The position numbers and the translations under genes are program-made. Positions 1-18,600 of a DNA stretch of 64,000 nt are shown here, piece after piece (positions within the stretch are counted from its first letter, which is position 1; the number at the start of each line of letters is the position of its first letter). The notes below the pieces were generated by a model. That model saw only the letters and a list, made by a program, of their open reading frames with translations, had not been told where the DNA came from and made no database searches. This stretch comes from an uncultured Acidobacteriaceae bacterium (GTDB lineage Bacteria > Acidobacteriota > Terriglobia > Terriglobales > Acidobacteriaceae), in assembly GCA_903904755.1 (NCBI GenBank), contig CAIVDV010000009.1, positions 1 through 64,000 of the forward strand. The letters run 5' to 3'.

Positions 1-264
1 GGGCTTCTGGAAACGATAGAACTGCTTTTCGCCGGTTGACTTCTCTTGGACCTCGTAGCCGCCCGCGCGCACAAACTCCCAGAATGCCCGGACAAAGGCG
101 CTATCCAACGCCTCGACAAAGAGAACGATGTCCAGGTCCTTGGTGGCCCTGAATGGGAGGCCGGCGCCGTTCATGGCAATATCGCATGCGGCACCGCCGA
201 TGAGTACATAGCGATCGGCAAAATTCCGGAAGTGCTCGCGAAAGACCTCCAACCCCTTCACCAT
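1..264 (-). CDS. AbiEii-like nucleotidyltransferase, partial (runs off the left edge; absent from the ORF track)
   Basis: Reverse complement from ATG at 264 reads 88 codons without stop: MVKGLEVFREHFRNFADRYVLIGGAACDIAMNGAGLPFRATKDLDIVLFVEALDSAFVRAFWEFVRAGGYEVQEKSTGEKQFYRFQKP. GGAA...R.TKDLDI matches AbiEii/pol-beta-like NTases. Start overlaps the stop of the upstream gene. Confidence 0.85.
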   Translation of the reverse strand, partial: MVKGLEVFREHFRNFADRYVLIGGAACDIAMNGAGLPFRATKDLDIVLFVEALDSAFVRAFWEFVRAGGYEVQEKSTGEKQFYRFQKP

Positions 265-1256
265 TTGAATTTCTCCATCATCTCTTCCAACGCGGTTTCA
301 GTGCGCTCGTCGCGGTCTTCCTTCAGGGAAAGATAGAGCGATAACGGATCGACGATGCCATCTTCGGCGAAGAGCACTGGCGGATACCACCAGACTTCAA
401 CCTCACTGGCATCCGGATCCTGTGCCGGAACCTCATTGATCTTGTGCCGTTGCCGAAGGGCTTTCCAATCATCACGGCTCAGCGCATAGGTCGTGTACTC
501 TGGCGGTGCCAGCATGCTGAATCGCGCCAATGCTGTGAGTCCAGCTCGCATAGCGCCTTCCAAGCCTGAGGCGCGGCGGATAAAAAGCCGCTTGCTCACC
601 GGGCTGCGGAGAAAGGGCAGAGCCTTCTCCCATATCTCTTTTCGGCCTCCAACGAAACGCAGGCAACGCTCCCGGCCGCGGACCGTGACTTCAGCAAGGT
701 TCGCCGCCTCCAACTGGTCAAAGGCGCGGGTCATCGTCATGGCCGAGTATCCCAACCGCGGGGCCATTTCGGCAGGAATCAGCACCTGCCCTGCATCGCG
801 GAGCAACGCATGGAGGACCACAACCTGCGTGGACGGGCTGAAGGTGGGAGCCTCCTCGCGGATTCTGCGGAAGTGCTCGCGCAAATCAATCGCCAGCATG
901 GGCAGGTACATCTGGTTGCCTGGAACAATAAACGGAACCTTATGTTCGATCAACCGCTTCCTGTTGTACGCCGTCACCTGCGCGCGGACATAGATCAGGT
1001 CCGCTTGCTGCCTGGCCTGGAGCATGTCCATGTGCTTGCGTACCGTTGCCGGCGCCTGCTCCTCGGGGTTGGAATCAATGATGAGAAGGGCGCGCAGTCC
1101 GAGCAGTTCCGCCTGCGCGAATTTGTACCTCTCCCTGAGGACGGGCGGCAAATTGCCTGCTCCTCGCCAAGGCGCAGTCTTCACCGTGGCGCCCAGGGCG
1201 TCGTGAACATAGCGCTCGAGTTCCTGGAGTTCGGGTTGCACCTGCGACTCCGCCAC
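258..1256 (-). CDS. AbiEi-like winged-helix antitoxin/regulator
   Basis: ORF 258..1301 trimmed to GTG at 1256 because the predicted promoter (-35 1296-1301, -10 1273-1278) lies inside the longer ORF. Overlaps the downstream NTase start (A-ATGG-TGA). HTH-like central region (YSAMTMTRAFDQLEAANLAEVTVRGRERCLRF). Confidence 0.7.
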   Translation of the reverse strand: MAESQVQPELQELERYVHDALGATVKTAPWRGAGNLPPVLRERYKFAQAELLGLRALLIIDSNPEEQAPATVRKHMDMLQARQQADLIYVRAQVTAYNRKRLIEHKVPFIVPGNQMYLPMLAIDLREHFRRIREEAPTFSPSTQVVVLHALLRDAGQVLIPAEMAPRLGYSAMTMTRAFDQLEAANLAEVTVRGRERCLRFVGGRKEIWEKALPFLRSPVSKRLFIRRASGLEGAMRAGLTALARFSMLAPPEYTTYALSRDDWKALRQRHKINEVPAQDPDASEVEVWWYPPVLFAEDGIVDPLSLYLSLKEDRDERTETALEEMMEKFKW

Positions 1257-1263
1257 AATGGAT

Positions 1264-1301
1264 ATGCACGATAGCATAGCACATGTGATCGTGCATTTCA
1301 A
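1264..1301 (-). promoter_or_regulatory. Promoter with overlapping operator for the AbiE-like operon
   Basis: Minus strand TTGAAA-N17-TATGCT; perfect 9-bp inverted repeat ATGCACGAT (1264-1272) / ATCGTGCAT (1288-1296) flanks the -10. Confidence 0.6.
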
Positions 1302-1453
1302 GTGTTATATTGACAAGCGGCGCACTGCGACACGATCAGCCCATTGGCCGCATGGTGTGCACACACTTTACCCGCAAAATACCGAGGGGTATCTACATAG
1401 GCGGAAGCCGTTGGTCTATGAGATGATTTCGCTTTTGGAGAGTCTCGTTCCGC

Positions 1454-4400
1454 ATGAGCGATTTCAAAGAGGGTCTATACGATCAGCTGGTAACTCGGCA
1501 TGTCCGGGAGTTCCTTGACCTGCAAGCCGCACAAGGACTGAAATCGTCGATCGAAGAGCTTGAAGAGAACGACTACCCAGACTATCTTGCTCGCCACCTC
1601 ATCCGGCAGATCAAGGCTGTCCTTCGATCCGTACCGGCGGAAGATCGCAAGCGAAGACAAATTGAGCTAGCGAATACTCTTTTGGACTTTGCGCGCACAC
1701 AAGAAACCTCCATCGAAACAGATGCCGTCGATCAGGCTGGCCAGGTCCTCCGCGCCATTTACAGTGGTGCGGTCGCTCCGGTGCCGCCGTCCACTCCTCT
1801 TAGCGTTACAAGCCTGTTGATGAATGCGCTCGACGAACCTCGTCTCGGCTTTGAACTTGAACGCGAAATGGCAACCGCGGACCGGGTGCTCATGGTGGTT
1901 AGCTTCGTCCAATGGCGTGGCTGGCAGCGTCTCAAAAGCGCCTTTCATTTGCTCGCCGAACGAAATGTTCCGATCAGGCTGCTGACGACCACCTATATAG
2001 GAGCCACAGATTTCCGCGCAATTGAAGAATTGTCGCGGCTTCCCAACGTTGAATTGCGCATCTCCCTCGATGGCCGCCGGCGCCGTCTGCACGCCAAGGC
2101 CTGGCTCTTTCAGCGGGACAATGGCTTCAGCAGCATCTATGTTGGCTCGGCTAATCTTTCCGGGCCCGCTCTCGAAGATGGAATCGAATGGACCGTCAAG
2201 CTCAGCGAAGTCGAAGCGCCACATATTGTCGAGCGTTTCCGGGGTGCGTTTGATTCCCTTTGGTGCGATGAAGAGTTTGAAACATTCCGGCCCGATGATG
2301 AAGCCTTCTGTCGTCGTGTAAAGCAGTCTCTGGAATATGCGCGGCAGGGTCCCGGTCGCCGGGATTCTGGACCGCCGGTGTTCTTCGATTTGAGGCCGCA
2401 TCCCTATCAGCAAGCTACGCTCGATCAACTTGAAGCTGAGCGAGTCGACAGGGGCCATTTCCGTAATCTGGTGGTCGCCCCAACTGGCACCGGCAAGACG
2501 TTGGTTGCGGCATTCGACTACAACCGCCAACCTTTCATCGGCCCACGGCCACGCTTGCTCTTTCTGGCCCATCGGGAGGAACTCCTGCGCCAGGCACGCG
2601 ACAGATTCCGCCATGTTTTGCGCGACGAATCATTTGGCGAGTTGTTGGGTGGCGGAGAAGAGCCCAGCAGTTTCGACCATCTCTTCGCCACCATTCAGAG
2701 CTTCCGGAGCCGGGGTCTACTCGAATCCCAAGGTGCAGATCACTGGGACTATGTTGTTCTCGATGAGGCCCACCACGTCCCCGCGGACAGTTATCGCGAG
2801 ATCGTCTCTTCTCTGCGGCCACGGATTCTTTTGGGGCTGACGGCAACCCCAGAGCGCATGGACGGCGAGAGCATATTGCCGTGGTTCGACCATCGGATCG
2901 CTGATGAGATGCGCCTCTGGCACGCGATTGAACGCCAGTATCTGGTGCCCTTCGACTACTACGGCGTTCACGATGGCATTGACTTGTCCGGGCTTTCATG
3001 GAGCCGTGGTGCGTATGCCGTCAGCGAACTCGAACAGCACTACCTCGGCAACACTCGCCGCGCGAATCTGATCGTCAAGGAGTTCTGCGAGTTCTATGGT
3101 GACTGGCATTTGGCCCGGGGACTTGGGTTTTGCGTGAGTATCGCACATGCTGAATTCATGGCCGAGTCATTTCGACAGGCGGGAATACCTGCATTGGCCA
3201 TCACCAGTGAATCGCCAGCGGAGGAACGAGCTCAGGCTACGAGCCTGCTGCGCAATCGAGAAGTGAATGTTCTATTCACAGTCGACCTTTACAACGAAGG
3301 CGTCGACATTCCCGAGGCTGATTGCGTGCTCTTTCTCCGGCCGACCGAAAGTTCGACGGTCTTTCTCCAGCAACTGGGGCGCGGGCTTAGGCTGGATACG
3401 GGCAAGACTAGCAGTCTTGTGCTGGATTTCATCGGCAACCAAAGACGTGAGTTCCGCTTTGACCAGAGGTTCCTTGCATTATTTGGTGGAACGAGACAGC
3501 AGGTGATCCGGAAAATCGAGAGCGGAATCACGCGTCTGCCGGGAAATTGCTATTTCCGGCTCGATAAAGAGTCCCGGAAAGTCATCCTGGAGAATCTTAA
3601 AGCACAGTTGCAGGCAAACCGCGCAAGGATGGTCGCAGAGCTCAGAGCGCTCGCGAGCCAACTCGGACGGCGCCCCACTCTGATCGAGTATCTTGCCGAA
3701 ACCCGCTATGAGCTTTCGGATGTTTACAAGCAGTCGATTGGAGGCTGGTATGCCCTTCTCAACGAAGCGCAATTCCTGGCAGAGCCTCCGGCGGAACCCG
3801 ACATAAAGTTAATTAGGCAATTTCGGCACTTATTACATATCGATTCGATCCAACGGCTGCGACTGTACCTAGATCTGCTGAGCGGAACGAGAGTTGGAGC
3901 CGAAACTCTCAGTGTTTCCGAGAGGCGTATGGTGCAGATGCTGACCTTTCGCTTGCTTCAGGGTGAGGCGAAACAGCAAAGGGACGAATGGGAAGCTGGA
4001 TTGACGCGGCTCAGACAGCACGGCGGAGCAAAAGCAGAGTTCAAAGAGCTTTGTGACGCTTTGCTTGATTCAGTGAAACTGCATAGCGACGAAAATCCAA
4101 CGCTGGGTGACTGCCCAGTCTTTCTCCACCGGCAATATACTCGCGATGAAATTCTCGTTGGATTGGGTCTGGCGAAGCTTGTCGGAGCATTCAATACGCA
4201 AACCGGCCGATTTTGGATCGAAGCATTGAATACCGAAGTTTTCTTTGTGACTCTGGACAAATCAGAGAAAACTTTCTCACCATCCACTCGATACGAGGAC
4301 TTCGCGCTGAGTCCGACCCGATTCCATTGGCAATCCCAGAGCACTACGAGCGAGAATTCTCCGACTGGCCAGCGGTATGTTCACCAACAGGAAAACGGTG

Positions 4401-4570
4401 CCAGGTTTCTGCTGTTCGTTCGACCGAAGAGGGAAGACGCATTCTTATTCCTCGGACCTTTGCACTACGTATCTCATTCGGGGAGCCGCCCGATGAGCAT
4501 TTACTGGGACCTGGACTATCCGATGCCTGCCTGGTTCTTCGAGATTTGCGCTTCACTACGGGCAGCTTGA
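1454..4570 (+). CDS. PLD-nuclease / DEAH-box SF2 helicase / DUF3427 C-terminal domain protein
   Basis: PLD motif (RLHAKAWLF...YVGSANLSG), Walker A APTGTGKT, DEAHH, LTATPERMD, QQLGRGLR; C-terminus RYEDFALSPTRFHWQSQS...LGPLHYVSHSGSRPMSIYWDL is DUF3427-like. Confidence 0.9.
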   Translation: MSDFKEGLYDQLVTRHVREFLDLQAAQGLKSSIEELEENDYPDYLARHLIRQIKAVLRSVPAEDRKRRQIELANTLLDFARTQETSIETDAVDQAGQVLRAIYSGAVAPVPPSTPLSVTSLLMNALDEPRLGFELEREMATADRVLMVVSFVQWRGWQRLKSAFHLLAERNVPIRLLTTTYIGATDFRAIEELSRLPNVELRISLDGRRRRLHAKAWLFQRDNGFSSIYVGSANLSGPALEDGIEWTVKLSEVEAPHIVERFRGAFDSLWCDEEFETFRPDDEAFCRRVKQSLEYARQGPGRRDSGPPVFFDLRPHPYQQATLDQLEAERVDRGHFRNLVVAPTGTGKTLVAAFDYNRQPFIGPRPRLLFLAHREELLRQARDRFRHVLRDESFGELLGGGEEPSSFDHLFATIQSFRSRGLLESQGADHWDYVVLDEAHHVPADSYREIVSSLRPRILLGLTATPERMDGESILPWFDHRIADEMRLWHAIERQYLVPFDYYGVHDGIDLSGLSWSRGAYAVSELEQHYLGNTRRANLIVKEFCEFYGDWHLARGLGFCVSIAHAEFMAESFRQAGIPALAITSESPAEERAQATSLLRNREVNVLFTVDLYNEGVDIPEADCVLFLRPTESSTVFLQQLGRGLRLDTGKTSSLVLDFIGNQRREFRFDQRFLALFGGTRQQVIRKIESGITRLPGNCYFRLDKESRKVILENLKAQLQANRARMVAELRALASQLGRRPTLIEYLAETRYELSDVYKQSIGGWYALLNEAQFLAEPPAEPDIKLIRQFRHLLHIDSIQRLRLYLDLLSGTRVGAETLSVSERRMVQMLTFRLLQGEAKQQRDEWEAGLTRLRQHGGAKAEFKELCDALLDSVKLHSDENPTLGDCPVFLHRQYTRDEILVGLGLAKLVGAFNTQTGRFWIEALNTEVFFVTLDKSEKTFSPSTRYEDFALSPTRFHWQSQSTTSENSPTGQRYVHQQENGARFLLFVRPKREDAFLFLGPLHYVSHSGSRPMSIYWDLDYPMPAWFFEICASLRAA

Positions 4571-4583
4571 GAATCCGACCACG

Positions 4584-5240
4584 TCACGCAATTTCGCTGG
4601 AAACGTCGATCTCGACAACCTGCGGCTCATGGACGAGCCGGTAGGCTTCGTCAACCACGGACGCGTTCACGAATTGGGTACCGTTGGCAGTCATTTGCCC
4701 GCGGCCGCCATGAATATGCCCAAAGATATTCAGTCTAGGCCTGATCTGTTCAATCGCTTTTGCCAGTTCCTCGCACCCAAGATGAGGGGTAGAAGAAAGC
4801 GATTTGTCCAGCACTCCGAACGGCGGTCCATGTGTGACCAGGACGTCTGTGCCTTCGGGAATCATCTGCCAATAGCGCCGGATTGCAGCGCCGCGGGCGA
4901 CATTGAATGCCCAATTATTGAATTCGGGCTGAACAGGGGATCCCCAGAACTTCAAACCCAGAAGTTCCGTACCGGAATTTTCAAGATAGATTGCGTTGGA
5001 GAGCAGCTCTTTTGCGGCTCCGGGGTGGCGCTCGAACATCAGATCATGGTTTCCGGCAATAACGACCTTGAATCGGTGTGGCTGCTTGCCTAGCCAATGA
5101 TTGAAATCGACAATCTCCTTCGGCGTGTCGCCGAATGCCATGAAATCCCCTGCATGAATGAGCACATCCCCAGCCGGCACGCTCAATTTGGCGTGCTGGC
5201 CGTGGGTGTCGCTAATGCACACAATGCGGACAGGCGGCAT
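4584..5240 (-). CDS. Calcineurin-like metallophosphoesterase (MPPED/239FB-like)
   Basis: SDTHG, GDF, GNHD, THGPPFG, FGHIHGG motifs. Start is 3 nt after the stop of the upstream HEPN gene. Confidence 0.85.
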   Translation of the reverse strand: MPPVRIVCISDTHGQHAKLSVPAGDVLIHAGDFMAFGDTPKEIVDFNHWLGKQPHRFKVVIAGNHDLMFERHPGAAKELLSNAIYLENSGTELLGLKFWGSPVQPEFNNWAFNVARGAAIRRYWQMIPEGTDVLVTHGPPFGVLDKSLSSTPHLGCEELAKAIEQIRPRLNIFGHIHGGRGQMTANGTQFVNASVVDEAYRLVHEPQVVEIDVSSEIA

Positions 5241-5243
5241 GGA

Positions 5244-5720
5244 TCAACTTTGCTTTGAATCGTCTTTGAGAAGTTCGGGATGGGTTGCCTTCAACCACTC
5301 ATTCACCTGCTCTCGCAAAAGGCCCAAGTCCCTTATGACCTGCGCGAGATCGGTGGGCGAGACGCCGCCCGCCAAATCGTAGCTCGTGGTGTTTCTCTTC
5401 TGCGAATGAGATTTGATCTTGCGCACCCATCTCTCGCGCGCTGTGGCATCCTGAGTCGTCAGGGTATGTTCGAGGCTTTCGATCACCCGCCGGTGGTGCC
5501 CTTGGCCCAGAGAGACACGAAAGCCGCTGGCCCGCAGGCCAATGTTGGCGAGCGTGAGAACGCCGTTGTAGGCCGCCTGAAAGCGAAGGTCGTCGGAGAT
5601 GCCCTCCACTTTGAGGTCCGCCTGCGAACGGTCCACGATGCTGAAGAGGTCCGCAATCTCCTTCGAACTGCTAGGCTCAGCCTTGTACCAACCGAGTTGT
5701 ACTAACTTTTCTAAACTCAT
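5244..5720 (-). CDS. HEPN-like protein (partner of MNT)
   Basis: 158 aa helical protein with KRNTTSYD (RNxxxY-type HEPN signature) and candidate Rx6H stretches; overlaps the 3' end of the MNT gene. Confidence 0.65.
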   Translation of the reverse strand: MSLEKLVQLGWYKAEPSSSKEIADLFSIVDRSQADLKVEGISDDLRFQAAYNGVLTLANIGLRASGFRVSLGQGHHRRVIESLEHTLTTQDATARERWVRKIKSHSQKRNTTSYDLAGGVSPTDLAQVIRDLGLLREQVNEWLKATHPELLKDDSKQS

Positions 5721-6300
5721 CCTCGTCGCCGATCAGAAACACTTTTCTACTCTTCTTCAATGATTGCAAAAAGTGGTTGCCTTCGTGAAGCCGTGCCCTC
5801 ACATCTTCGAGTGAGTATATGGTTGGATTCACGGGACGCCGCAACTGCTTCTCGACGGGACCCACAACGTCCAATACTTCGTCGAGCGTAATCGCACCGA
5901 TCACCATCAGGTCAATGTCGCTCGCGGCTTTCTCCTCGCCGCGGGCAACCGAACCATAAACAAAGGCAACGCTGATACGGGACGAAAGCGGGGCGAGAGC
6001 AGCCTTGAGCATCTGAAATACACCGGTGGTTTTTGCGAGCAAGGCCCGAAGTTCTGGGAATTCCGGATGCTCCTGATTGGCCTGGTAAAACACCTGACTA
6101 CCCACAGCTGAGCGCTTGATCAGTCCTGCGTCGGCGAGTAATGCAAGTTCGCGCTGAACAGTCCCCACGCTCGTCTCGACCTGGCGGGCAATTTGGCGAA
6201 CGAAGAAAGTTTCGTCGGGCGCACCATACAGAAGCGCCAGAACTCTACCTCTGGTCTGGCCAAAGAGCAGATCCCCAACGGACGTGAGAGATGTTCTCAT
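5677..6300 (-). CDS. HTH-nucleotidyltransferase (MNT) fusion, putative antitoxin
   Basis: N-terminal winged helix (TFFVRQIARQVETSVGTVQRELALLADAGLIKR), then VYGSVARGEEKAASDIDLMV (GSx10DxD). Start M18 (6300) chosen because a palindromic operator lies inside the longer ORF. Confidence 0.85.
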   Translation of the reverse strand: MRTSLTSVGDLLFGQTRGRVLALLYGAPDETFFVRQIARQVETSVGTVQRELALLADAGLIKRSAVGSQVFYQANQEHPEFPELRALLAKTTGVFQMLKAALAPLSSRISVAFVYGSVARGEEKAASDIDLMVIGAITLDEVLDVVGPVEKQLRRPVNPTIYSLEDVRARLHEGNHFLQSLKKSRKVFLIGDEDEFRKVSTTRLVQG

Positions 6301-6312
6301 TCCGAGAACAAT

Positions 6313-6331
6313 TGTACTCAAAATGAGTACA
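6313..6331 (-). promoter_or_regulatory. Palindromic operator upstream of the MNT-HEPN operon
   Basis: Perfect inverted repeat TGTACTCA-AAA-TGAGTACA immediately upstream of ATG 6300. Confidence 0.65.
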
Positions 6332-6398
6332 GACTGGCTAGCAGTGCGCACTTATCTCGACAAACACCCCACTGCGCAGCGAAAACTTGGATCGCGTT

Positions 6399-6995
6399 TC
6401 AGATCTCAATTTCCTGGTCGTAGGCCGCGAGGTCAGCGAGTGCCGCCCTGCGTTCGGTCTGGATTTTCGCTTCTCGGGCGACAGCCTTCGGCTGCATCAC
6501 GGCTTGGATTTCGTCAAAGTGCCACGGGCGAAACTCGTGGGTATCAACGCCCACGTCAAGAGAGAGCGCCAGAGGCTCGTCCGGCAGGTTGCCGTGCGAG
6601 TGTCCGTAGAGGTGCCACGCGCCTTGGGCGTGGTGTGGCCACACTCGCATCGCATAATGGCAAAGCACGATTCTCTGCTTCGCTGCGTGGACCTCGGACA
6701 ACAGATTCCATGAAGCAAAGAGATGCTGAAGCTTTCGCGCAGTTCTGTCGTGGTTGCCTTCGATAAAGTGGATTGTCCGGCAGGCCAGCCGCTTTCGATA
6801 GGCGGTCACGCGCTCCGGTCCTCCGAGGCAGAAATCCCCGAGGAAATAGAGAATATCGTTTGGTTTGGCGCAAGCGTTGACACGCTCGCAGATCGCGTTG
6901 TCCATCTCCTCCACGCTCGCAAAGGGACGATTGCAATACCGAATAATGTTGAAGTGGCCGAGATGAAAATCGGCCGTGAACCAGACATCGCGCAT
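6399..6995 (-). CDS. Metallophosphoesterase
   Basis: FTADFHLGH, LGDFCLGG, EGNHDR, CHYAM, LYGHSHGN. Start M13 of ORF 6399..7031 preferred (MRDVWFTADFHLGH). Confidence 0.85.
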   Translation of the reverse strand: MRDVWFTADFHLGHFNIIRYCNRPFASVEEMDNAICERVNACAKPNDILYFLGDFCLGGPERVTAYRKRLACRTIHFIEGNHDRTARKLQHLFASWNLLSEVHAAKQRIVLCHYAMRVWPHHAQGAWHLYGHSHGNLPDEPLALSLDVGVDTHEFRPWHFDEIQAVMQPKAVAREAKIQTERRAALADLAAYDQEIEI

Positions 6996-7336
6996 GGATT
7001 CATTCTCGTTGATCTCAGGGCTCAGCGTCATCGCCTAGCCGAACCCTGATTAGAGGATGCAGGGCACAGATTGTTGATCGAATGGTTTGACACGAGCCGC
7101 TCGACAGTTGAAATCTGTGAGCAATTCATTCACGGGGTTGCGGTCGGCCGCCTTATTCCGCCTTGTTCTTGTTCCCTTCCTCGGGCTTTGGGCTGCGGCG
7201 AGTTTTAAAATGAGCAACTTCCATGAGGTGACCATACGACTTGAGTCGCCCACTATTCGCTTGTCTCCGGAAGAACTTGGCTTGGGGGACCCACCTCGCG
7301 ATTGGGGTTGCGAGCAGAGATCATGTCGAGGAGCGC

Positions 7337-7379
7337 TTGACTATCATGGTAATCATTGGTATCATGGAGATCATGGATG
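7337..7379 (+). promoter_or_regulatory. Promoter embedded in a 4x 9-bp direct repeat, upstream of the RES module
   Basis: TTGACT (7337-7342)-N17-TATCAT (7360-7365). TCAT at 7344, 7353, 7362, 7371: TCATGGTAA/TCATTGGTA/TCATGGAGA/TCATGGATG, exact 9-bp period. Confidence 0.55.
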
Positions 7380-8359
7380 GTGCGGTCATGTCGGAATCTC
7401 TAACAGCTTCTGCAGCCCTCCTTGAGCCTAGCGGCATTCATACGCTCGATGTTCGCCATGCCATGGACAAACTCATTGCAGCGGTCTCTCCCGAGCAAAG
7501 CCATGCCAACGCGGCTTACGGTGTCGTGATCTACCATGCCGCCAAGAGGGTCCCGGCACCCAACATCCTGAGTGCGACCGGTTGGTTCGTCCAAGCCTAT
7601 CTGAAAGGATGGACCGCTCTCTCGAAGATGGAAGTCGGAGTGGTGGGCGCTGGAGAAAAAGGGAACGCTCTTATCGGTGTGCTCGAACACAGCAATGTCC
7701 GCTACATCGTAAAGGTATTCGCGGGCAAGGCAGCGGTGAGCGCTCTAAAAAAAGAAGCGAAGCCATCGCCTGGCGTCTACATCAACACGGCCCATCTCGA
7801 CACGCTTTTGCTTGACGATCTCAGGCTGCCTCACCTTCCCGAGCGATTCCGAAACATGCCTCTCGTCATGCAGGTAGAAGAGAAAGAACAAAAGAACGAT
7901 GAAACGTTGCCCGGATGGGAGAACTTCGTCAAAGCCACCTTCGATGAGATTGCAGCCCAGGAAACGATCGACCGCGATACGGTGGAATGGCGAAGCCAAT
8001 TCATGAAGAACAATCCGAGCTGGACCGCGAAGGATGTTGCGGATCAAAGTACCAGTACTGCGAAGAATCGAGCTGCGCTCGCCTCGCGCTGGGCTCAAGA
8101 AGGAAAGATCTTCGCGGTGAAATACGAGGGGCAGCTCTGGTATCCGCGCTTCCAGTTTCAGGATGGAGAGCCTCTGACCACAATTGGGCAGGTCATCCAG
8201 GCGTATCCGAGCCACGCCAATGGATGGGACTTCGCTTACTTCTTTGCTACTCCCAATGCGAACATCGGAGGGCGGAAGCCTCTCGAACTACTGAAGTCTG
8301 ATCCCCAACGTGTTCTCTCGCTTGCTCGCGCCGCGGCCAGTCCCGCCGATGCCTATTAA
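7373..8359 (+). CDS. Xre/MbcA/ParS-type antitoxin with a long N-terminal extension
   Basis: ORF 7241..8359, start moved to ATG 7373 (or 7388) because of the embedded promoter. C-terminal NGWDFAYFFATPNANIGGRKPLELLKSDPQRVLSLARAA resembles the ParS/MbcA toxin-binding domain; overlaps the RES gene. Confidence 0.7.
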   Translation: MDGAVMSESLTASAALLEPSGIHTLDVRHAMDKLIAAVSPEQSHANAAYGVVIYHAAKRVPAPNILSATGWFVQAYLKGWTALSKMEVGVVGAGEKGNALIGVLEHSNVRYIVKVFAGKAAVSALKKEAKPSPGVYINTAHLDTLLLDDLRLPHLPERFRNMPLVMQVEEKEQKNDETLPGWENFVKATFDEIAAQETIDRDTVEWRSQFMKNNPSWTAKDVADQSTSTAKNRAALASRWAQEGKIFAVKYEGQLWYPRFQFQDGEPLTTIGQVIQAYPSHANGWDFAYFFATPNANIGGRKPLELLKSDPQRVLSLARAAASPADAY

Positions 8360-9038
8360 ATGCCCGCCCGCGCCTGTCGCGGCAAACCCCGCACTCGTCA
8401 TCCAGACCGCGATCCTAAAGGCGGGCTCGGCATTGACGCGCTTTCATAGCAAATCGCGTGCGGGCAATATCTATAACCCGAACACCGGGAAACGCATCGA
8501 GATCGAGGAGGAAGGCGCTCGATTCAATCCGTTTCCTGGGGCTCCGGCTGCCAATGTGCCTACGCTATACGCTGCCGACAACATCACCGCGGCGGCACTC
8601 GAAAGCATCTTCCACGCCGTGAAGCACATTCCATCACCGACCTTCCCTCGGATCGGCCTCAAAGATTCAAGCTATAGCGAGCTCGTGGTCAACGCCGACC
8701 TGGTTGTCGTTGAGTTGACGAACCCTCAGCTGCGCCAACTCGTTATCGCGCGCCGCCGCACCTCCTTGAAGGAGGAAGAACTGATTCACACTCCGCCGAG
8801 CCAATACCCCCACACTCGCACCTGGGCTCGCTTCCTGCACGACAGTCTCCCCTCGCTTCAGGGTCTCTGCTGGCGTCCACGTCTCGGCGGCGCCGGGCTG
8901 GCGTACATGCTCTTCGGGGATCGCTGCGCCCTGGGAGCTCTCACTGTCACCTCCGGTCCGACCGACATCGATTCGGGAAGCGGTTTTGTCAGAGTGTTTG
9001 AGATTGCTCAATCGGCAAACATCAAGATCATCGGGTAG
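8349..9038 (+). CDS. RES-domain toxin (NAD+ phosphorylase/hydrolase family)
   Basis: RFHS...NIYNP...GARFNPFPG...VPTLYAADNITAAALESIFH is RES-like. ATG at 8349 overlaps the antitoxin end; 8310 is an alternative start. Confidence 0.85.
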   Translation: MPIKCPPAPVAANPALVIQTAILKAGSALTRFHSKSRAGNIYNPNTGKRIEIEEEGARFNPFPGAPAANVPTLYAADNITAAALESIFHAVKHIPSPTFPRIGLKDSSYSELVVNADLVVVELTNPQLRQLVIARRRTSLKEEELIHTPPSQYPHTRTWARFLHDSLPSLQGLCWRPRLGGAGLAYMLFGDRCALGALTVTSGPTDIDSGSGFVRVFEIAQSANIKIIG

Positions 9039-9334
9039 ATCCGAAGCGGCGCATTTGCTTCCGGCCGATACTGACCGGGGGCGAATCATGTATAAAGGGT
9101 CCCAGAGCACTTCAGAGTGCTCGAATGATGAAACCAGATTGGGAAGTGTGGAGAGGTGCTGAGAAGTGAGCAGGGTCCGAGTTGAGCCCTTTTTGTGACC
9201 GGATTGTGCCAAGATCTGAAAATGATGACAATCATGACAGATTTGCACTTCACAGAGTCAATAAGTTACGTGGATTGAGGTACTGGAGTCCGACCGACTC
9301 CCGCCGCCTCCACCAACTTTATGTCACTTATTTT

Positions 9335-9355
9335 CAATTATTTAGGCAATTATTT
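9335..9355. repeat. AT-rich direct repeat, CAATTATTT x2 (12-bp period)
   Basis: CAATTATTT at 9335-9343 and 9347-9355 in an AT-rich patch of a 0.6-kb intergenic gap. Confidence 0.6.
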
Positions 9356-9581
9356 TCGGCTACTCTGCTAGTCCTTTGCTAACAATCAAAGCAAATGAGT
9401 ACGCCACGGTACGGATTGCAACACGCCAACGACGCCTTTGACCACCGATGCACGTCCAGGAAGCATCTGCGCTGGACCATGTGGCAGCCTCAACTCACTT
9501 GAAATTAAGAGTTCCCCCACACCCATATCAATTTGCCGCCATGCCGATGAGGTAACGGCGGAGGTTGACGCTGCGCTTCAG

Positions 9582-9630
9582 CCGCTCTGCCATTCCCCCT
9601 GAAACCAATTTCAGGGGAATGGCTGAGCGG
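9582..9630 (-). terminator. Long hairpin 3' of the giant gene, no U-tract
   Basis: CCGCTCTGCCATTCCCCCTGAAA-ccaa-TTTCAGGGGAATGGCTGAGCGG; one mismatch and one bulged C. Confidence 0.5.
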
Positions 9631-9646
9631 TATTCTCTTTCCGCGC

Positions 9647-12600
9647 CTACTTGGTTACTTTCACATTGACGGCCGCCAGGGCATTCGCGCCCTTATAGTT
9701 GGCGTCACCGCTGTAGCTGATTGTGATTGGATTGGTTCCCGGCAGCAGATCGCTGGTATCGAGCGTTGCCACACCGCCGCTCAGCGTTCCTGTCCCCAGC
9801 GTCCTGTTTCCGTCAAGGAATTTCACAGTTCCCGTCGGAGTTGCGCCGCTGCCGCTCAACGTTGCTGTCAAGGCAACCGTGTCCCCCAGTCTGGCCGGAT
9901 TTTCCAGGCTCGTGAGCACTGCGGTAGCAGTAAGCTTGCTTACAATTAGCTTCAGAATCGTGCCATTCATAGCCGCGTAGTTGCCGTCTCCGCGATACTG
10001 GACCCACAAATCATGCTGCCCAGCCGGCAGAGCGCGAATCAAAAACGTGGCCACGCCAGCGCTCAGGGTCGCCGTCCCGAGCTGCGAATTCACATCGCGC
10101 AGGATTACCGTCCCGGTCGGGGTTGCACCTGACCCCAGAATGCTCGCGGTCAGGGTTACGGCCGTGCCCACCGTGTCAGGATTCGGTGAGGCGTCCAAAT
10201 GGACCGCCGTCGGGGTCAGCTTCTCCACGCTTACTGACCTGAAGTTTCGGACGGTGTTGTAGTTGGCATCGCCACTGTAGACCGCAACAATCTGATGACC
10301 CCCGACGGTCAGCCTGACGTTGGGCAGGCTTGCTGTGCCGCTCACCAGCGCAACTCTTGCAAGCAGCGTGTGCAGGTCATAGAAAGCCACTGTTCCCGTT
10401 GGGCTCACTGCCGGAATCGTACCCCCAACCGTGGCTTGGAGCGCCACTGCGTTGTTGGCATCGGTCGGATTGGGCCAGGCAGTAATAGCCACCGTGGGAA
10501 TTGCCAGGATTGTTTCAGTGAGCTTGCTCGAAGTTGCGGATGGGTAGGTGCTGTCTCCGCTGTACGTCGCTGAGATTGCATGGGTCCCGATCGGGAGAGT
10601 GCTTACGGAGTAAGCGGCCTGGCTGCCAGTGAGGCTGACGGTGGCAATCAGGCTGGCATCCGCGAAGAAGTTCACCGCGCCGGTCGGTGCTGACCCGTTC
10701 CCGGTAACCTGTGCCGTAAAAGTAACACTAGCCCCGGCGTTCGCTTTGTAGGCGGAGGTGCTGAGAGCGACGGTTGCCGCCGGCCCCTCACTGCCGATCA
10801 CCGTGAGCATTTGTGCGACGCCGGATTGGTTGAGGTTGTTGTCCGTCACCCGAACGAGTTCAGAGAGCGTGGCGGACGGGGCGAAGGTGACTGGTTTGAA
10901 GTTGACACTGAGAGTGCAGGTTGCGCCGGCCGGCAGGGGCGAGGGAACGCGGCAGTCGGATGCGGCGGAGGCCTTGGGGAAGTCGACGGGGAAGGAAATG
11001 GAGCTGAAGCTGAGGGGAGCGTTGCCGAAGTTTTCGACTGTGAAGCGTTTTGGATTTTCGGTAGTGTCCACGGTGCCTTTGGGGGTGATGGTGGTGAAGG
11101 CGAGCGCGGGGAGGTCGGCGTAGTCCATTTCCACGATGGCTCCGTGGTTGGTATCGGCCAGGTAGACATTGCCGGCAGCATCGACAGAGACCGCGCCGGG
11201 CGAGCTGAGCGGGGCTGTTGGCAGCAGGGTTTCGGTGTAGTTTGCGCCGTTGGGAGTTTCGCGAACCAGGGAATTGGCTGGCCCGCTGGTGAAGTAGATA
11301 CGTCCGTTGCTGTCGACGGCAACCGAGGTCGGCTGGATGGCATTGAAAGAGGTGGGGAAAGCCGTGACTACCGACTCGATGTAGCTGCCGGCTGAGGGCG
11401 CTTCCCTCAGGATGCGATTGTTGTAGGTGTCGGCGACGTATACGTTGCCGGCGGCATCGACGGCCACGCCGTGGGGCTCAGCGAGTGCACTGGTGGGAAT
11501 TACGGTTTCGGTATAGTTCGCCGTGCCTGGCTGGGTGAGCGTCTCCATGAGGATCCGGTTGTTGTAGGTATCGGCGATGTAGATGTTTCCGGCGGCATCC
11601 ACAGCGACGCCGTAGGGTTCAGAGAGTGCGCTGGTGGGGAGTACGGACTGGGTCCAGGTACCGGGGCTGGTCAGTGTTTCGAGGACAATCTGGTTATTGA
11701 AGGTGTCTGCAACGATGACGTTGCCGAGCGCATCAACCGCGAGGGCATTCGGCTGTGCGAAGCCTGAACCGAGGGTGGAGGCGGTGTAGCCGCTGCCAGT
11801 GTTGGTTTCGAGGAAGATTTGGTTGTTGTAGGTGTCGGCGACAAAGAGGTTGCCGGCGCCATCGACGGCGACCCCCTCAGGGAAATTGAAGCCGGAGACT
11901 GGCGTGGAAGCGGTGCCGGGGAGGAAGTTGGTCTGGGGTCCAACGCCGAGGGCGCGCAGGTAGGCGGAACCGGCGATGGTTCCCGGAGCAGTACCGGTGA
12001 CAAGTTGCAGCCCAGCATTGTGGTCGCCGCTCAAGGCTGGCGTGAAGCGAACGTTGACGGTGCAAGGAATCCCGGAGGTGGCAGCGTAGCCCGTGGCGGA
12101 GCAGGTACCGCCAGGAACCACGGCGATTTCCGTGGTGGGCGCACCCTGGTTGAGGACCGTGATGGACGAGACAGTGCCGGAACTGGTTGGGGTCACCGGA
12201 ACCAGAAAGGTGGTGCTGTCCCCCACGTTGACCTGAGGAATGGCGAATTGCGCGAGTGCGTTGGATTCGGCAGCGGTGTAGTTGGTGTTGCCGTTGTAGA
12301 CAGCGGTGACGGTGTAGCTGCCGGCCGGGAGAGTGCCGGAGGCGATGGATCCGCTGCCGCCAGTGAGGTTAACCGTTCCCAGCACGGTGGGGCCGGTGTA
12401 GCTGGTGAGGGTGAAAGTGATGGTGCCGGTGGGGACTGCACCGGAGCCAACAGCGCTGACGGTGGCTGTGAAGGTGGTGGCGTTGCCCGCAGGGATTGGA
12501 TTCGCAGCGGAGCCGAGTGCGACGGTGGGCGTTGCCTGCGTGACCGTGAGGGGAACGCTTGCGGTGGCCGTCGCAAAGTCAGTGGTGTCAGTCGGTGTGA

Positions 12601-15600
12601 ACTGCACGCTGAGGCTCTGCGTGCCGGCATCGAGCACCGCACCGTCCGCAGGCGTGTACAGGAATGTGCCCGTGGTGACTGTGCTGGCGTTCAGTTGCGT
12701 GGCATCGAGAGGGGTGCCGTAGGAGATGGCGGCAGGGGGCAGCCAGGCGATGGGCAGCGACGCCGGTGTGCCCGGTTGGGTGACAAAGAGGGTTCCGGTT
12801 GCGAACTGGAAGTTGTAGTTGGCGGCGGCGAGGGTGCCCTGCGTGCCGCTGATGGTGTAGTTGCCCGCCGGGGAGGTGACGACTTGCGGGGTCGTGGAGG
12901 AGAGGGTTACGGCGGCGGAGAGAGCGGGTGCCCCGGAGACTACAGGGAACTCGACGGCATCGCCGTTGACATAGCCGCTGATGGAGTACGTGAGCGTAGG
13001 CAGCTGTTCGTTGACGAACATGGAGACATCTTTTGCCTTCACGGTGAGCAGTGCCTTTGCGACGTTGAAGCTTCGGACCACGCTCGTGGCGGGAGACCAG
13101 GTGCTGTTGCCGGCTTGGGAGGCGGTGACGGTTACCAGGCCAGCTCCGATGATCGAGAGGGTAGGCCCAGAGATTGTGGCCGGGCCGCTGACGGAGTAGG
13201 AGATGGGTAGGTTGGAAGTTGCGGAGGCCCCCAGGTTGAACGGGGTGATCCCATAGGTTTGGTCGCTGAGAGAGCCAAACGTGATTGTCTGGGCGAGCGG
13301 GTTGACAGTTACGGTCGATGAGATTGCCGGAACATTGGTTGCGTTGACGTCATTCACGGTGAAGGTGTAGGTACCGGCCTGGCTGATGGAGAAGCTGCTG
13401 AGATTCAGGTCAGCGACTCCGCTGGAGAATGGGCCACCACCTCCATTGAGACCAGATGAGAACTCCGGACCAGTGATGATGAGCCGTGCCCCATCGGTGC
13501 TGTTGGAAATTGGGTTTCCGGCGGCATCTTCCACCTGGACCTGGATATGTCCGAAGCTGGCGTTGGCATTGATGCTTGTCGGCGGGGGTGTCACGAAGAC
13601 CAATTGAGCCGGTGCGCCGACGATGGAGTTTCCGGTGAAGCTGACGGTCTGGGTTCCAGTCGCATTGAGAGAGTTGGTGGTGGCGGTGGCGGAGAGGTCC
13701 TGCTCACCGAGGGTCGTGGGGTTGAAGAGGAAGGTGAGGCTGCAGCTTCCACCAGCCGAAAGCGTGGAAGACGCGCTGCAGGCGTTGCCGTCCTGTTGCT
13801 GCTGATAGGCGGCGGGGACGCTGAGAGCGCTGAAGGCTAGGGGGCGATTGCCGGCGTTGGCAAGTTGGACGGACTGGACGGCGCTGGAGGTTTCGTCTGC
13901 GATGTCTCCGAAGGCCATGGAGAAGTTGGCGGCATCCATCCGGTAGACGGCGGAGTTGGCTTCGTCCGAGATGTAAATCGACCCCTGCGGGGTGACGGCG
14001 ACACCAAGGAAGCTGGGGTTGGCAATGCCCAGCGGCAGACTGGTAGCAGTCCCGCCGGAAGGGATGCGGAAGAGCGCATTGGCTCCGGCATCGGCAACGT
14101 AAACCGTACCCGCGGCATCTACTGCGAGTTGGGTGGGAGTGGTGAGTTGGTAGCCGCCAGGGGCGGTGGTGGAGTCGAGCAGGGTGGTGGTGACGCCGAG
14201 GTAGCTGGTCTTGTAGATGGCCGGCTCATCGGTGGCGACGTAGATGTTCTGGAACTCATCGACGGCGACACTCTGTATGTTTACGGTGCTGGCTGTGCCG
14301 TAGGTGTAGGCGTTGACGAAGTTGCCGTAGACATCAAAGGTGGCCAGGGTATTGGAAGCGGTGTCGTAGTAAGTTCCTGCGGCGTCGCGTGCGAGCGGGC
14401 CGTCAGCGCTGATTCCGTTGGTGGCCAGGCCGAAGCCGGTGGAGCTGACGCGGAAGATTGCGGAGCCAAAGCTGACCGGCTTGAGGTAGAAGTTGCCCTG
14501 GGCGTCCATGGCGAAGTCGTGCTCAGCTCCACCAGGAACGGTGCTGGTGTCGAGGGCGGTGGAGACGGCGCCGGCAGGGGTGATCTTCTGGATTGCGGGG
14601 CCGGCCGGGTTGGTCTGGTCGAGCAGGAAGACGTTGCCTGCGCTGTCGGAGTGGAGGACGGTGGGGGTCCAGGTGCCGGAGACGGTGGTCTTGTTGCCGA
14701 GGAAGAACACGGCTTCGGGCCCGGTTCCGATGCCGTAGATGGGCAGAGTAACGGTGTGGCCGAGTGCATCGGTCGCCTGGAGGGTGGCGTCGCGCTGGCC
14801 GGGGAAGGCAGGGCTAAAGCTGACGTCGAAGGAGCAGCGGTTGTTGGAAACCGTGCAGGTGTTGCCATTGGGCAGGGTCCAATCGGAGTTGCCGGCCGAG
14901 TCGGCCACGGAGATGGTGCTGACGGAGTTTCCAACCGGCACGCTGAGGGTGACGTTGAAGTTTTGTGGGGTGCCGACGGCGGCTTGGCCGGCGTTGAGGG
15001 GCTGTGCGCTGGAGGCCACGAAGACCTTTGCGCTGCCAGAGCTGACGACATAGACGCGAGTCTGTGAGTCAACAAAGATGGCTCCGGCACCGTTCAGCGC
15101 GGGGGTCTGGAGAATGCGGTAGGCGAATCCGTTGGCGTATTGAGTCACGGTGTTGTCGGTGGCGTCGGAGACATAAAGGCTGTTGCCGCGGCCGATGGCG
15201 AGGGCGACCGGGTTGGTGAGACCGGAGGCAACCGTGGAAGGAGTGCCGGTGATGTTCACCTTCTCATTGACGACGTTGACGGAGCCGGTGGTGCCGGAGA
15301 CATAGAGGGTGTTGTTTGAGTCGATGGCAATGGCGTTGACTGAGAGCACGCCCAGTTGGGAGAAGGAAATCTGGGTGGAACTGGTCTCTCCGGGGCCACG
15401 TTCCCATGCGCTGCTGATGGAGGGATCCGTGATGTACATCTTGCCATTGGTGTCGACGGCGACCCCTGTGGCGGAATAAGCACCCGAGAAGAGCGTGGAT
15501 GCCTGGTTCGACGGGGAGACGTAGCGGATGACGGAGACGTTGTTCCTGCCGCCGTTGGAGACGACGTAGAGGGCGCCGTCTGGGCCAATGGTCATGGCGC

Positions 15601-18600
15601 CGGGAGCGGTCAGGCCGTTGATGGGCAGGGTTCTCTGCACACCGGCGGGGTCGATTTCGTAGACGGCGTTGTTGGCAGTGTCGCTGAGGAAGACATTTCC
15701 GTTAGCGTCCGCGGCGACACCCCCAGGGGTGGTGATGGTGGCAGGAACCGGGTGGAGCGAGGAGAGGAAGCTGATGGACTGGGCGTTGATTCCGGTGCCG
15801 GAGAGGGCGACGGTTTGGGAGCCGCCGGTGTAGGAAACCTGGAACTGGCTGCTGGCCGCTCCATCTGCGGTGGGAGTGAAGGTGACCAGGATGGAGCAGC
15901 TGGCCTGGGAAGCAAGCGTGGCTGCGCAGGAGCTGGCATCGACCGAGAAGGGGGCGGCCGGAGAGGAGACGGAGAGACCGGTGACTGCCGCAGAGCCGAT
16001 GTTGGTGACGTTGACGGTCTGCGCTGCCGAGGCAATGTTGAGCACCTGGCTGCCGAAGTTGATTGTCGTTGCGCTCAACTGCGGGTCAGGGCCGGCAGGG
16101 ATGCCGGTTCCGGTGAGCGAGACGGTGTTGGGGCTGTTCGGTGCGTTGCCTGGGATGACGAGCTGCGCCGAGAGTGTTCCCGCAGCCCGCGGGGTAAATG
16201 TGACGTTGTAGCTGCAGAAGGTACCGAACGGGGTGATTTGGCTTCCGGCCGGGCAGGCAGAGGTGACGCTGAAACTGGAAGCGGCTGGGCCTGAGATGGT
16301 GGGGGTTCCAACTATCAGGTTTGAGGTTCCGATGTTTTCGAGCGATATACCCTGAACGGCAGCGGAGACCCCGACTATGGTGGAGGGGAAGTTGAGGCTG
16401 GAAACGTTGGTTGCGCCTTTTGGAGTGGACGGGAGAATGGTGATGGGCAGGCCGAAGGATATTTGGGGGTTATAGTTGGCGTCGCCGAGGTAATTGGCTG
16501 TGATGGTGTCGGCTCCGACAGGCAGGGCGGAGGTCTGCAAGGTTGCGGTTCCGGCCTGATAGCCGCCAATGGTGCTGCTGGTGATTGGGGCGGTGCCGAG
16601 GCTGATGCCGTTGGCCATGAACTGCACGTTGCCGGTCAACGCGGGCGAAGTGCGCTGGCTGGTGACGGTGGCCGTGAGGGTAATCAGCAAGCCCTGGAAG
16701 ACGTTGGAGGTATGGTTCGCGGCAACGCTGACGGTGTCGGTGAAGCCGTGGACGGCGATGGTCTGCGCGGCTGAGGTGGAGCTGGCGGTGATGGCGTCGC
16801 CAGAGTAGACGGCGGTGACCGAATCGTTGCCGGGGTAGAGGCCGGTGGTGGTGAGCTTTGCCGAGAGGTTATAGGCACCGCCGCTGATGCTGACGGAGCC
16901 CACGGCAACCGGCGCGCCGACAGGGTTGCCATTCTGGTAGAACTGGACGGTACCGGAGGGCGCGGTGACGGTCTGGGGTACGCTGACGGAAGCGATGAGA
17001 TCCACAGCAGAGCCCAGCGTGGAAGAATTTGTGCTGAGCGAAAGTGCAACGGTGGGCACAGCTTTGGTGATGGTGATGGCGCCAGTGGCGGCCGGAGAGG
17101 GATTGAATGTGTCGTCGCCGGCGTAGGTGGCCGTGAGCGTGTAGGTGTCGACCGGGACGTTGTTTATAAGCCAGTTGGGAATCGTGATACTCGATCCGCT
17201 GGCAGGTGTGAGCGCCGTGAGCGGAGTAGTGCCAAGGTAATACTGGGTGGTGCCGGTGCTGGCTCTGGTGTAGTTGATGACGATGTTGCCGGAGGGGTTG
17301 CCGTAGCCTGTGGTTCCGTTTGCGTTTACGACAATGGTGTAGGTCCCTGCTCCATAAGGTGCGCTGGCCGGGGCGGTTGAGCCGTCAGGGTTTTGCCAGA
17401 GAACTGTGAGCGAGGAGTTGATTTTCGTGATCTGGAGAGATTGCGACCCACTGGTGCTGCGCCCATATTGCGTGTCGCCACCGTAGAGCGCCTTGATGGT
17501 ATTTGAGCCGATGCCGACTCCCGTCATCGTCCCGGAGAAGTTCCCGCCGGCATCGAGCGCGTAGGGGCCGTAGCTGTGGTTGTGATTGTCCAGCAGGGTG
17601 ACATAGCCGGTGGGGGTTCCTGCGGAAGTGTTGTCCGTGACGGTTCCTGAGATGTTGACGGGGGTGCCGTAGTTCTCCGTGCTCACCCCCAGAGTCAGCG
17701 TTGTCGTGGTCCCGACGTAATGGATGCTGGTCCATTTGTTGATGAGCTGGGCGACATTGACTGAGCCGAGGCCGGTGACCAGATCGTAGCCGGTACCGGA
17801 ATCGTAGGTTTCCGAGGAGGTTCCGTAGCCGGCCTGGCCTGGGACGGCGTTGTTGCCGTTGGTGATGTCGTAGAAAACGCAACTGGATGGCGGGCGGGTT
17901 GTGGACTGGCTGGAGCCGTTGCAATCGCTCCAGTTCTCGCCAGAGGCGAGCTTGTACAGGGTGGGGTTGACGAGTCCCTGACGGCCGTATTTCTGGTCAA
18001 TCAGAGCAATCATGGCGGCAAAAGCCGGGCCGGAGGCTGAGGTTCCGCCATTGGCTTGCATGCTGAAGTTGGGATCCAACGGATTTCCACCGGCGCAGCT
18101 GCCGCCCTGGCAGACGAAATAAAGCGAATCTCCATAGGCAATCAACGAGACATCAGGGAAAGCGCGACCGAGGCCTGGGGTGATGCCCGGAACGCCGACC
18201 TGCCACTCCGGCTGAGGGAAGGTGGCATCGTATCCCCCACCGGAACCGTTCCAGGCATCTTCCGGAATGTGTCCGCCGACTGAGGTGGTTTGAAATGACG
18301 CCGCAGTGGCGGCGTAGAATCCGTTGAGCCCCCACCAGTAGAGGGCGTTTGAGCCAGTATCAGATATGGTGCCCCCAACCGAGGTGACATACGGGTGAGC
18401 GGTGTAGAGACTTGCACCGAGGGTCGGAGTGCCATAGGTATTCGGCTCTGAGCCGGCGAACGAGCCTGAGCCCCAATCACCGGAGCCCACAAAGTAGCTG
18501 ATGCCTTCTGCCGCAGCCTGCTCACCGCGCGCAACAATATAGTCGTCGAAGCTGCTGGGCCCGCCATCCATGATGGCGTAGCTCAGGCTGATGATGTCTA

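Follow-up and report, generated by a model that had tools for sequence, protein, structure and literature searches.

Two of the genes studied here, HTH-MNT and HEPN-like, form a pair that is listed among antiviral candidates as PDC-M05; the metallophosphoesterase (MPE) gene behind them was added locally and is now missing from close relatives, which kept the pair. The locus belongs to a soil bacterium of the family Acidobacteriaceae, and its three genes all lie on the minus strand, downstream of the palindrome at 6313-6331 (Table 1); throughout, "the window" denotes the whole stretch of 64,000 nucleotides that was analyzed. We consider it likely that an autoregulated Class II HEPN/MNT module of two genes forms the core, behind which an accessory, lineage-specific MPE gene stands where it could be co-transcribed.

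The gene layout claimed in the preliminary description was confirmed. The HTH-MNT and HEPN-like genes share 44 nt, the ATG of the MPE gene follows the HEPN stop codon by 3 nt (TGA-TCC-ATG), a position that would allow co-transcription with the other two genes, and the palindrome TGTACTCA-AAA-TGAGTACA lies upstream of the first gene. A longer HTH-MNT reading frame (224 aa, GTG at 6351) would make the operator part of the coding sequence. Of about 50 loci, nearly all had the MNT-HEPN pair with its gene overlap, and the overlapping gene order, together with an autoregulatory-looking operator, supports the earlier view of a toxin-antitoxin-like pair. Frameshifted or split copies of HEPN or MNT occur in five loci (L037, L038, L040, L045, and L047), which suggests that the pair decays frequently.

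Table 1. Positions of the features of the locus and of neighboring genes in the window
Feature	Position	Strand	Remarks
MPE gene (calcineurin-like metallophosphoesterase)	4584..5240	-	218 aa; PDC-S10; lineage-specific third gene
HEPN-like gene	5244..5720	-	158 aa; PDC-M05B
HTH-MNT gene	5677..6300	-	207 aa counted from ATG; PDC-M05A
Proximal operator palindrome	6292..6310	.	TGTTCTC-GGAAT-GAGAACA; matches TGTNCTCN5GAGNACA; encloses HTH-MNT start codon
Predicted -10 box TACAAT	6311..6316	-	between operators; same place in many relatives
Distal operator palindrome	6313..6331	.	minus-strand reading TGTACTCA-TTT-TGAGTACA; matches TGTNCTCN5GAGNACA
-35-like TAGCCA	6340-6335	-	partner of predicted -10 box TACAAT
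MPE2 gene	6399-6995	-	198 aa; second metallophosphoesterase
PLD-helicase-DUF3427 gene	1454-4570	+	1038 aa; PADLOC mREase_IV, 765 bits
Xre/MbcA/ParS-like gene, then RES-domain gene	7241-9038	+	overlapping genes
Large ORF	9647-19687	-	3346 aa

The HTH-MNT and HEPN-like proteins

Both proteins matched the PADLOC-DB entries PDC-M05A (240 bits, HTH-MNT residues 6-199) and PDC-M05B (163 bits, HEPN residues 1-152) over nearly their full length. In the accessible text of PMC12988326, PDC-M05 comprises the same two genes, a nucleotidyltransferase and a HEPN, is enriched in archaea, and has an unconfirmed antiviral role. The window differs in its third gene, MPE, which falls outside the PDC-M05 definition, and in a twin operator with an embedded start codon, which that text does not mention.

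The HTH-MNT protein combines an ArsR/HlyU-like winged HTH with a minimal nucleotidyltransferase; Pfam reported a wHTH (MarR_2/HTH_20, just under the cut-off) and a pol-beta nucleotidyltransferase. As a single sequence it found no relative among PDB sequences, but its structure model (pLDDT 83) matched the folds of the MNT antitoxins 8xeo, 8xeh, and 7bxo at about 1e-4, and the N-terminal half of the model matched ArsR-type wHTHs. The GSx10DxD signature is present (G116-S117-x10-D128-I-D130, with a Ser directly before D128), and its G, S, D, and D occur in all aligned members; R155 and N158 follow. N158, found in 51 of 53 sequences, occupies the third-Asp position, where the 9xbd MNT has an Asp in the alignment; this Asn could mean weak or absent nucleotidyl transfer.

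The HEPN-like protein belongs to the AF0298/PF05168 "Class II" type, with the motif R109-N110-x3-Y114 (R-N-T-T-S-Y) and H76. The catalytic motif R-x4-H(-x-Y) is absent, and no member of the aligned family has a His at that position. Arg and Tyr in the absence of R-x4-H are the pattern of AF0298-like HEPN-T proteins (PMC3710099), and a conserved Tyr with no RNase motif characterizes "Class II" (PMC7641770). R109 and Y114 are each conserved in 54 of 55 relatives, N110 in 50 of 55, and H76, the second conserved His N-terminal to the HEPN motif named in PMC3710099, in 48 of 53. Pfam found no domain in the window HEPN, PF05168 included, and matched PF05168 directly in 5 of 24 family members. The single sequence likewise found no relative among PDB sequences, whereas a profile of 24 relatives found 2hsb (AF0298; E 1.4e-7) and 9xbd (E 4.6e-6); it also found the HEPN-MNT structure 9xbc, whose aligned chain has Phe in place of the motif Tyr of 9xbd. 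The structure model was confident (pLDDT 93.5), and Foldseek against the PDB returned only matches with E>=1, with HEPNs among the better TM-scores. Helical bundles typically yield weak Foldseek E-values.

The pair resembles the type VII system HepT/MntA (SO_3166/SO_3165) in its MNT fold (the 7bxo match), its G-S and D-x-D residues, its HEPN-like fold (6m6w_B, TM 0.50, E 3.4), and its antitoxin-first order. However, R-x4-H-x-Y is missing from the window HEPN, the equivalent of MntA D71, which has a metal-binding role (PMC7641770), is Asn, the MNT is fused to an HTH, and an MPE is present. Because R-x4-H is absent and the third Asp is Asn, we do not file the pair as type VII, contrary to the plain type VII identity proposed earlier, although it may well work like type VII despite the missing features. 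"Class II" HEPN/MNT (PF05168/PF01909; PMC7641770) is closer in having a HEPN Tyr without R-x4-H and a GSx10DxD-type MNT, but the window MNT has an N-terminal winged HTH and the Asn, and Pfam PF05168 itself misses the window HEPN. The occurrence of R-N-x3-Y and MNT Asn158 in nearly the whole sampled family raises the question of how Class II modules function without the usual catalytic residues.

The twin operator and its likely role

The preliminary description overlooked the proximal palindrome, which is spaced 21 bp, centre to centre, from the distal one. The pattern TGTNCTCN5GAGNACA has exactly two sites in the 4.22-Mb assembly, namely these two palindromes, whereas a reversed-pattern control had zero sites in the same genome and window shuffles gave an expected count of 0.07 with one mismatch; the twin palindrome is therefore not a product of chance. 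A predicted -10 box with a -35-like partner accompanies the operators, although such boxes were no more numerous here than in shuffles. Read from the predicted -10 position, the HTH-MNT mRNA would be leaderless or nearly so. Rfam gave no match over positions 1-12000 of the window.

The twin operator, the embedded start codon, and the overlap between the two genes are recurrent features of the family. Among 51 upstream regions, the best tandem-palindrome spacing was 21 bp in 41, the tandem palindromes were better than shuffles in 31 (p<=0.05), and an in-frame ATG or GTG stood exactly 2 bp beyond the centre of the second palindrome in 34. The operator class also agreed with the recognition helix in 40/40 classified loci: CTC/GAG was paired with S-x-G, CCC/GGG with G-x-G, and CGC/GCG mostly with x-P-S. 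Each operator class is, however, confined to about one clade, so that the match amounts to as few as two changes on the tree; we therefore rejected this covariation as strong independent proof, and it counts as a weakness of the preferred explanation. A twin 21-bp operator that swallows the start codon, with helix classes tracking operator classes, is likely the autoregulatory design of PDC-M05.

It is natural to infer that HTH-MNT autorepresses its operon through these sites. In the preferred explanation, the winged HTH of the MNT protein would bind the two 21-bp-spaced operators, which cover the -10 region as well as the start codon of its own gene, and would repress the operon. The MNT domain would restrain HEPN by complex formation, by nucleotidylation of the conserved Tyr114, or by both. 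When repression or inhibition is lifted, for example by phage attack or stress, HEPN would be released as a growth-arresting effector that probably targets RNA, using R109 and the alternative H76. The PADLOC scores, the recurring operator layout, and the conserved HEPN R109/Y114 and MNT D128/D130 argue for this explanation. Against it stand the Asn that MNT carries in place of the third Asp and the fact that toxicity of HEPNs without R-x4-H is stated in general terms only (PMC3710099).

The loss of R-x4-H and of the third Asp could also mean that HTH-MNT and HEPN form a domesticated, nucleotide-responsive repressor and not a toxin system. The HEPN catalytic His is missing family-wide, as is the third Asp in nearly all members, and the operator and HTH are highly conserved, which fits such a regulator. 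Nonetheless, we regard it as unlikely: the invariant G-S and D-x-D and the near-invariant Tyr argue that chemistry is retained, the genome contains no such operators besides the pair's own, so that no other target is apparent, and the patchy distribution and frameshifted copies fit a toxin-like element.

Distribution and loss of the MPE gene

MPE is a calcineurin-like enzyme of the MPPED1/2 type (Pfam Metallophos), with the motifs D-x-H, GD, GNH, and GHxH intact. It matched PADLOC-DB PDC-S10 at 297 bits and the MPPED2 structure 3rl4 at 3e-54. It differs from PDC-S10 and MPPED1-MPPED2 in that the His of GHIH is present, and from PDC-S10 in that it lies inside an MNT-HEPN operon, which is not so elsewhere in the sampled phylum.

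Two loci out of about 50 with the MNT-HEPN pair, the window and L033, have MPE as the next gene after HEPN, and both belong to one clade; the expectation that it would be a conserved third gene was thus largely contradicted. In these two loci, which differ in context, MPE starts 3-7 nt past the HEPN stop codon, and the homology between them runs from the operator edge through the end of MPE. Among 297 genomes of the phylum, M05B occurred in 21, S10 in 36, and both in 6; S10 lay apart from M05 in 35 of the 36 S10-bearing genomes and was adjacent only in the window's genome (G000). Among 397 genomes of the order, HEPN occurred in 89 and S10 in 47, and G000 and G633 were the only genomes in which the two were adjacent. 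G633 is the source of the L033 contig and was rejected as a third independent triad, being the same record. HEPN and S10 did share a genome more often than expected (20 observed vs 10.5 expected, p 0.001 before any correction for genome size, completeness, or lineage), which counts against our preferred explanation. No MPE was annotated beside the pair in a few plasmid relatives (Legionella, Comamonas).

The gene behind HEPN varies. Pfam found no other metallophosphoesterase among the 39 ORFs counted in that position; several of these ORFs are of defence type, in that three are SNF2-type helicases like DISARM/BREX/Dpd proteins, and BrxA, a Dam-type methylase, and SIR2 had one match each. A SIR2-domain protein in L031 (6603-10205, 1200 aa) lies directly downstream of the pair, just past an MPE stub. 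In the sister clade, the position is taken by a 92-aa GNAT-type gene (Acetyltransf_CG-like; L034 6477-6755, L036 3155-3433, L035 3672-3950), and in L035 part of the GNAT-type sequence is also fused upstream of the MNT frame.

Three sister loci of the window carry MPE stubs right after the HEPN stop codon: MPRVRIVCISE in L031, MPRA in L032, and MPRVRIVCV* in L038. Each stub consists of the first MPE codons followed by unrelated sequence, and MPE was therefore ancestral to the clade and then deleted. MNT and HEPN remain readable in L031 and L032, although the contig stops within the L032 MNT; the L038 HEPN is frameshifted. Since MPE was lost in L031 and L032, it is unneeded for holding HEPN in check. 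Where kept, MPE is under purifying selection, with a dN/dS of about 0.06 (dS near saturation) compared with 0.11 for MNT and HEPN. MPE is a gene captured once behind HEPN in a small acidobacterial clade, and a dispensable one.

Possible roles of MPE and surrounding genes

The preliminary description took the three genes as a reversible module, in which MPE would re-arm HEPN, either through removal of AMP from its Tyr114 or through cleavage of an MNT-made nucleotide. The few-nucleotide spacing in two loci of different context, the purifying selection and intact active-site motifs, and the homologous unit from operator to MPE end are all consistent with this, as is the remark in PMC7641770 that undoing the adenylylation of HepT "may require unknown PDEs". 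As a design of the family, however, the module does not stand, given one clade with MPE adjacent and stubs in three sisters, two of which still have both pair genes readable. The single S10-M05 adjacency among S10-bearing genomes of the phylum, the Asn of MNT, and the status of Tyr114 as a candidate AMPylation site also weigh against it, and we give it a slim chance. An accessory role such as de-AMPylation or cleavage of a nucleotide signal, confined to the small clade, is a possibility. A bolder form, in which MPE would erase HEPN nucleotidylation in the window clade as part of a writer-target-eraser operon, the sisters having reverted to an irreversible pair, we hold to be very unlikely. Even so, the locus places next to an MNT-HEPN pair a candidate for the eraser enzyme that is described as unknown in the HepT/MntA work (PMC7641770), and loci with MPE, without it, and with a stub offer a natural comparison.

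Phosphoesterase genes have been noted in HEPN operons before, namely in HEPN-M/MNT operons with a HAD phosphoesterase (PMC3710099, Table 1). Those operons have a HAD fold and a DUF86-type HEPN, whereas the window has a calcineurin fold and a PF05168-type HEPN. We found no publications in which the terms HEPN, nucleotidyltransferase, metallophosphoesterase, and operon all occur.

In the preferred explanation, MPE, itself a PADLOC single-gene candidate, would be co-transcribed as an accessory or independent defence gene. Its sharper version, to which we give a better than even chance and whose probability is not exclusive of that of the broader one, is that two defence candidates (PDC-M05 and PDC-S10) came to share a transcript by defence-island shuffling and that MPE acts alone, with no contact with MNT-HEPN. 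The usual separation of S10 from M05 in the phylum, the varying gene after M05 with a single capture and later loss, and the mREase_IV and Xre/RES genes nearby point in this direction. Conversely, capture into the same operon a few nucleotides from HEPN, with lasting selection, could mean a joint function.

The mREase_IV gene is convergent with the MPE gene. On the other side of the operon, the Xre/MbcA/ParS-like gene and the overlapping RES-domain gene are likely an Xre-RES toxin-antitoxin pair, and because of this pair the locus resembles a small defence island. The second metallophosphoesterase, MPE2, which the preliminary description did not mention, is of an unrelated type with weak similarity to PdeM and ends about 68 bp ahead of the operator. 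With homologous DNA it also precedes MNT in L031 and, in part, in L038, but it is absent from L033; it was left out as a component of the system because it is located before the operator and missing in L033. Farther along, the large ORF encodes a protein whose N-terminal region is protease-like and whose many repeats include NHL-like stretches.
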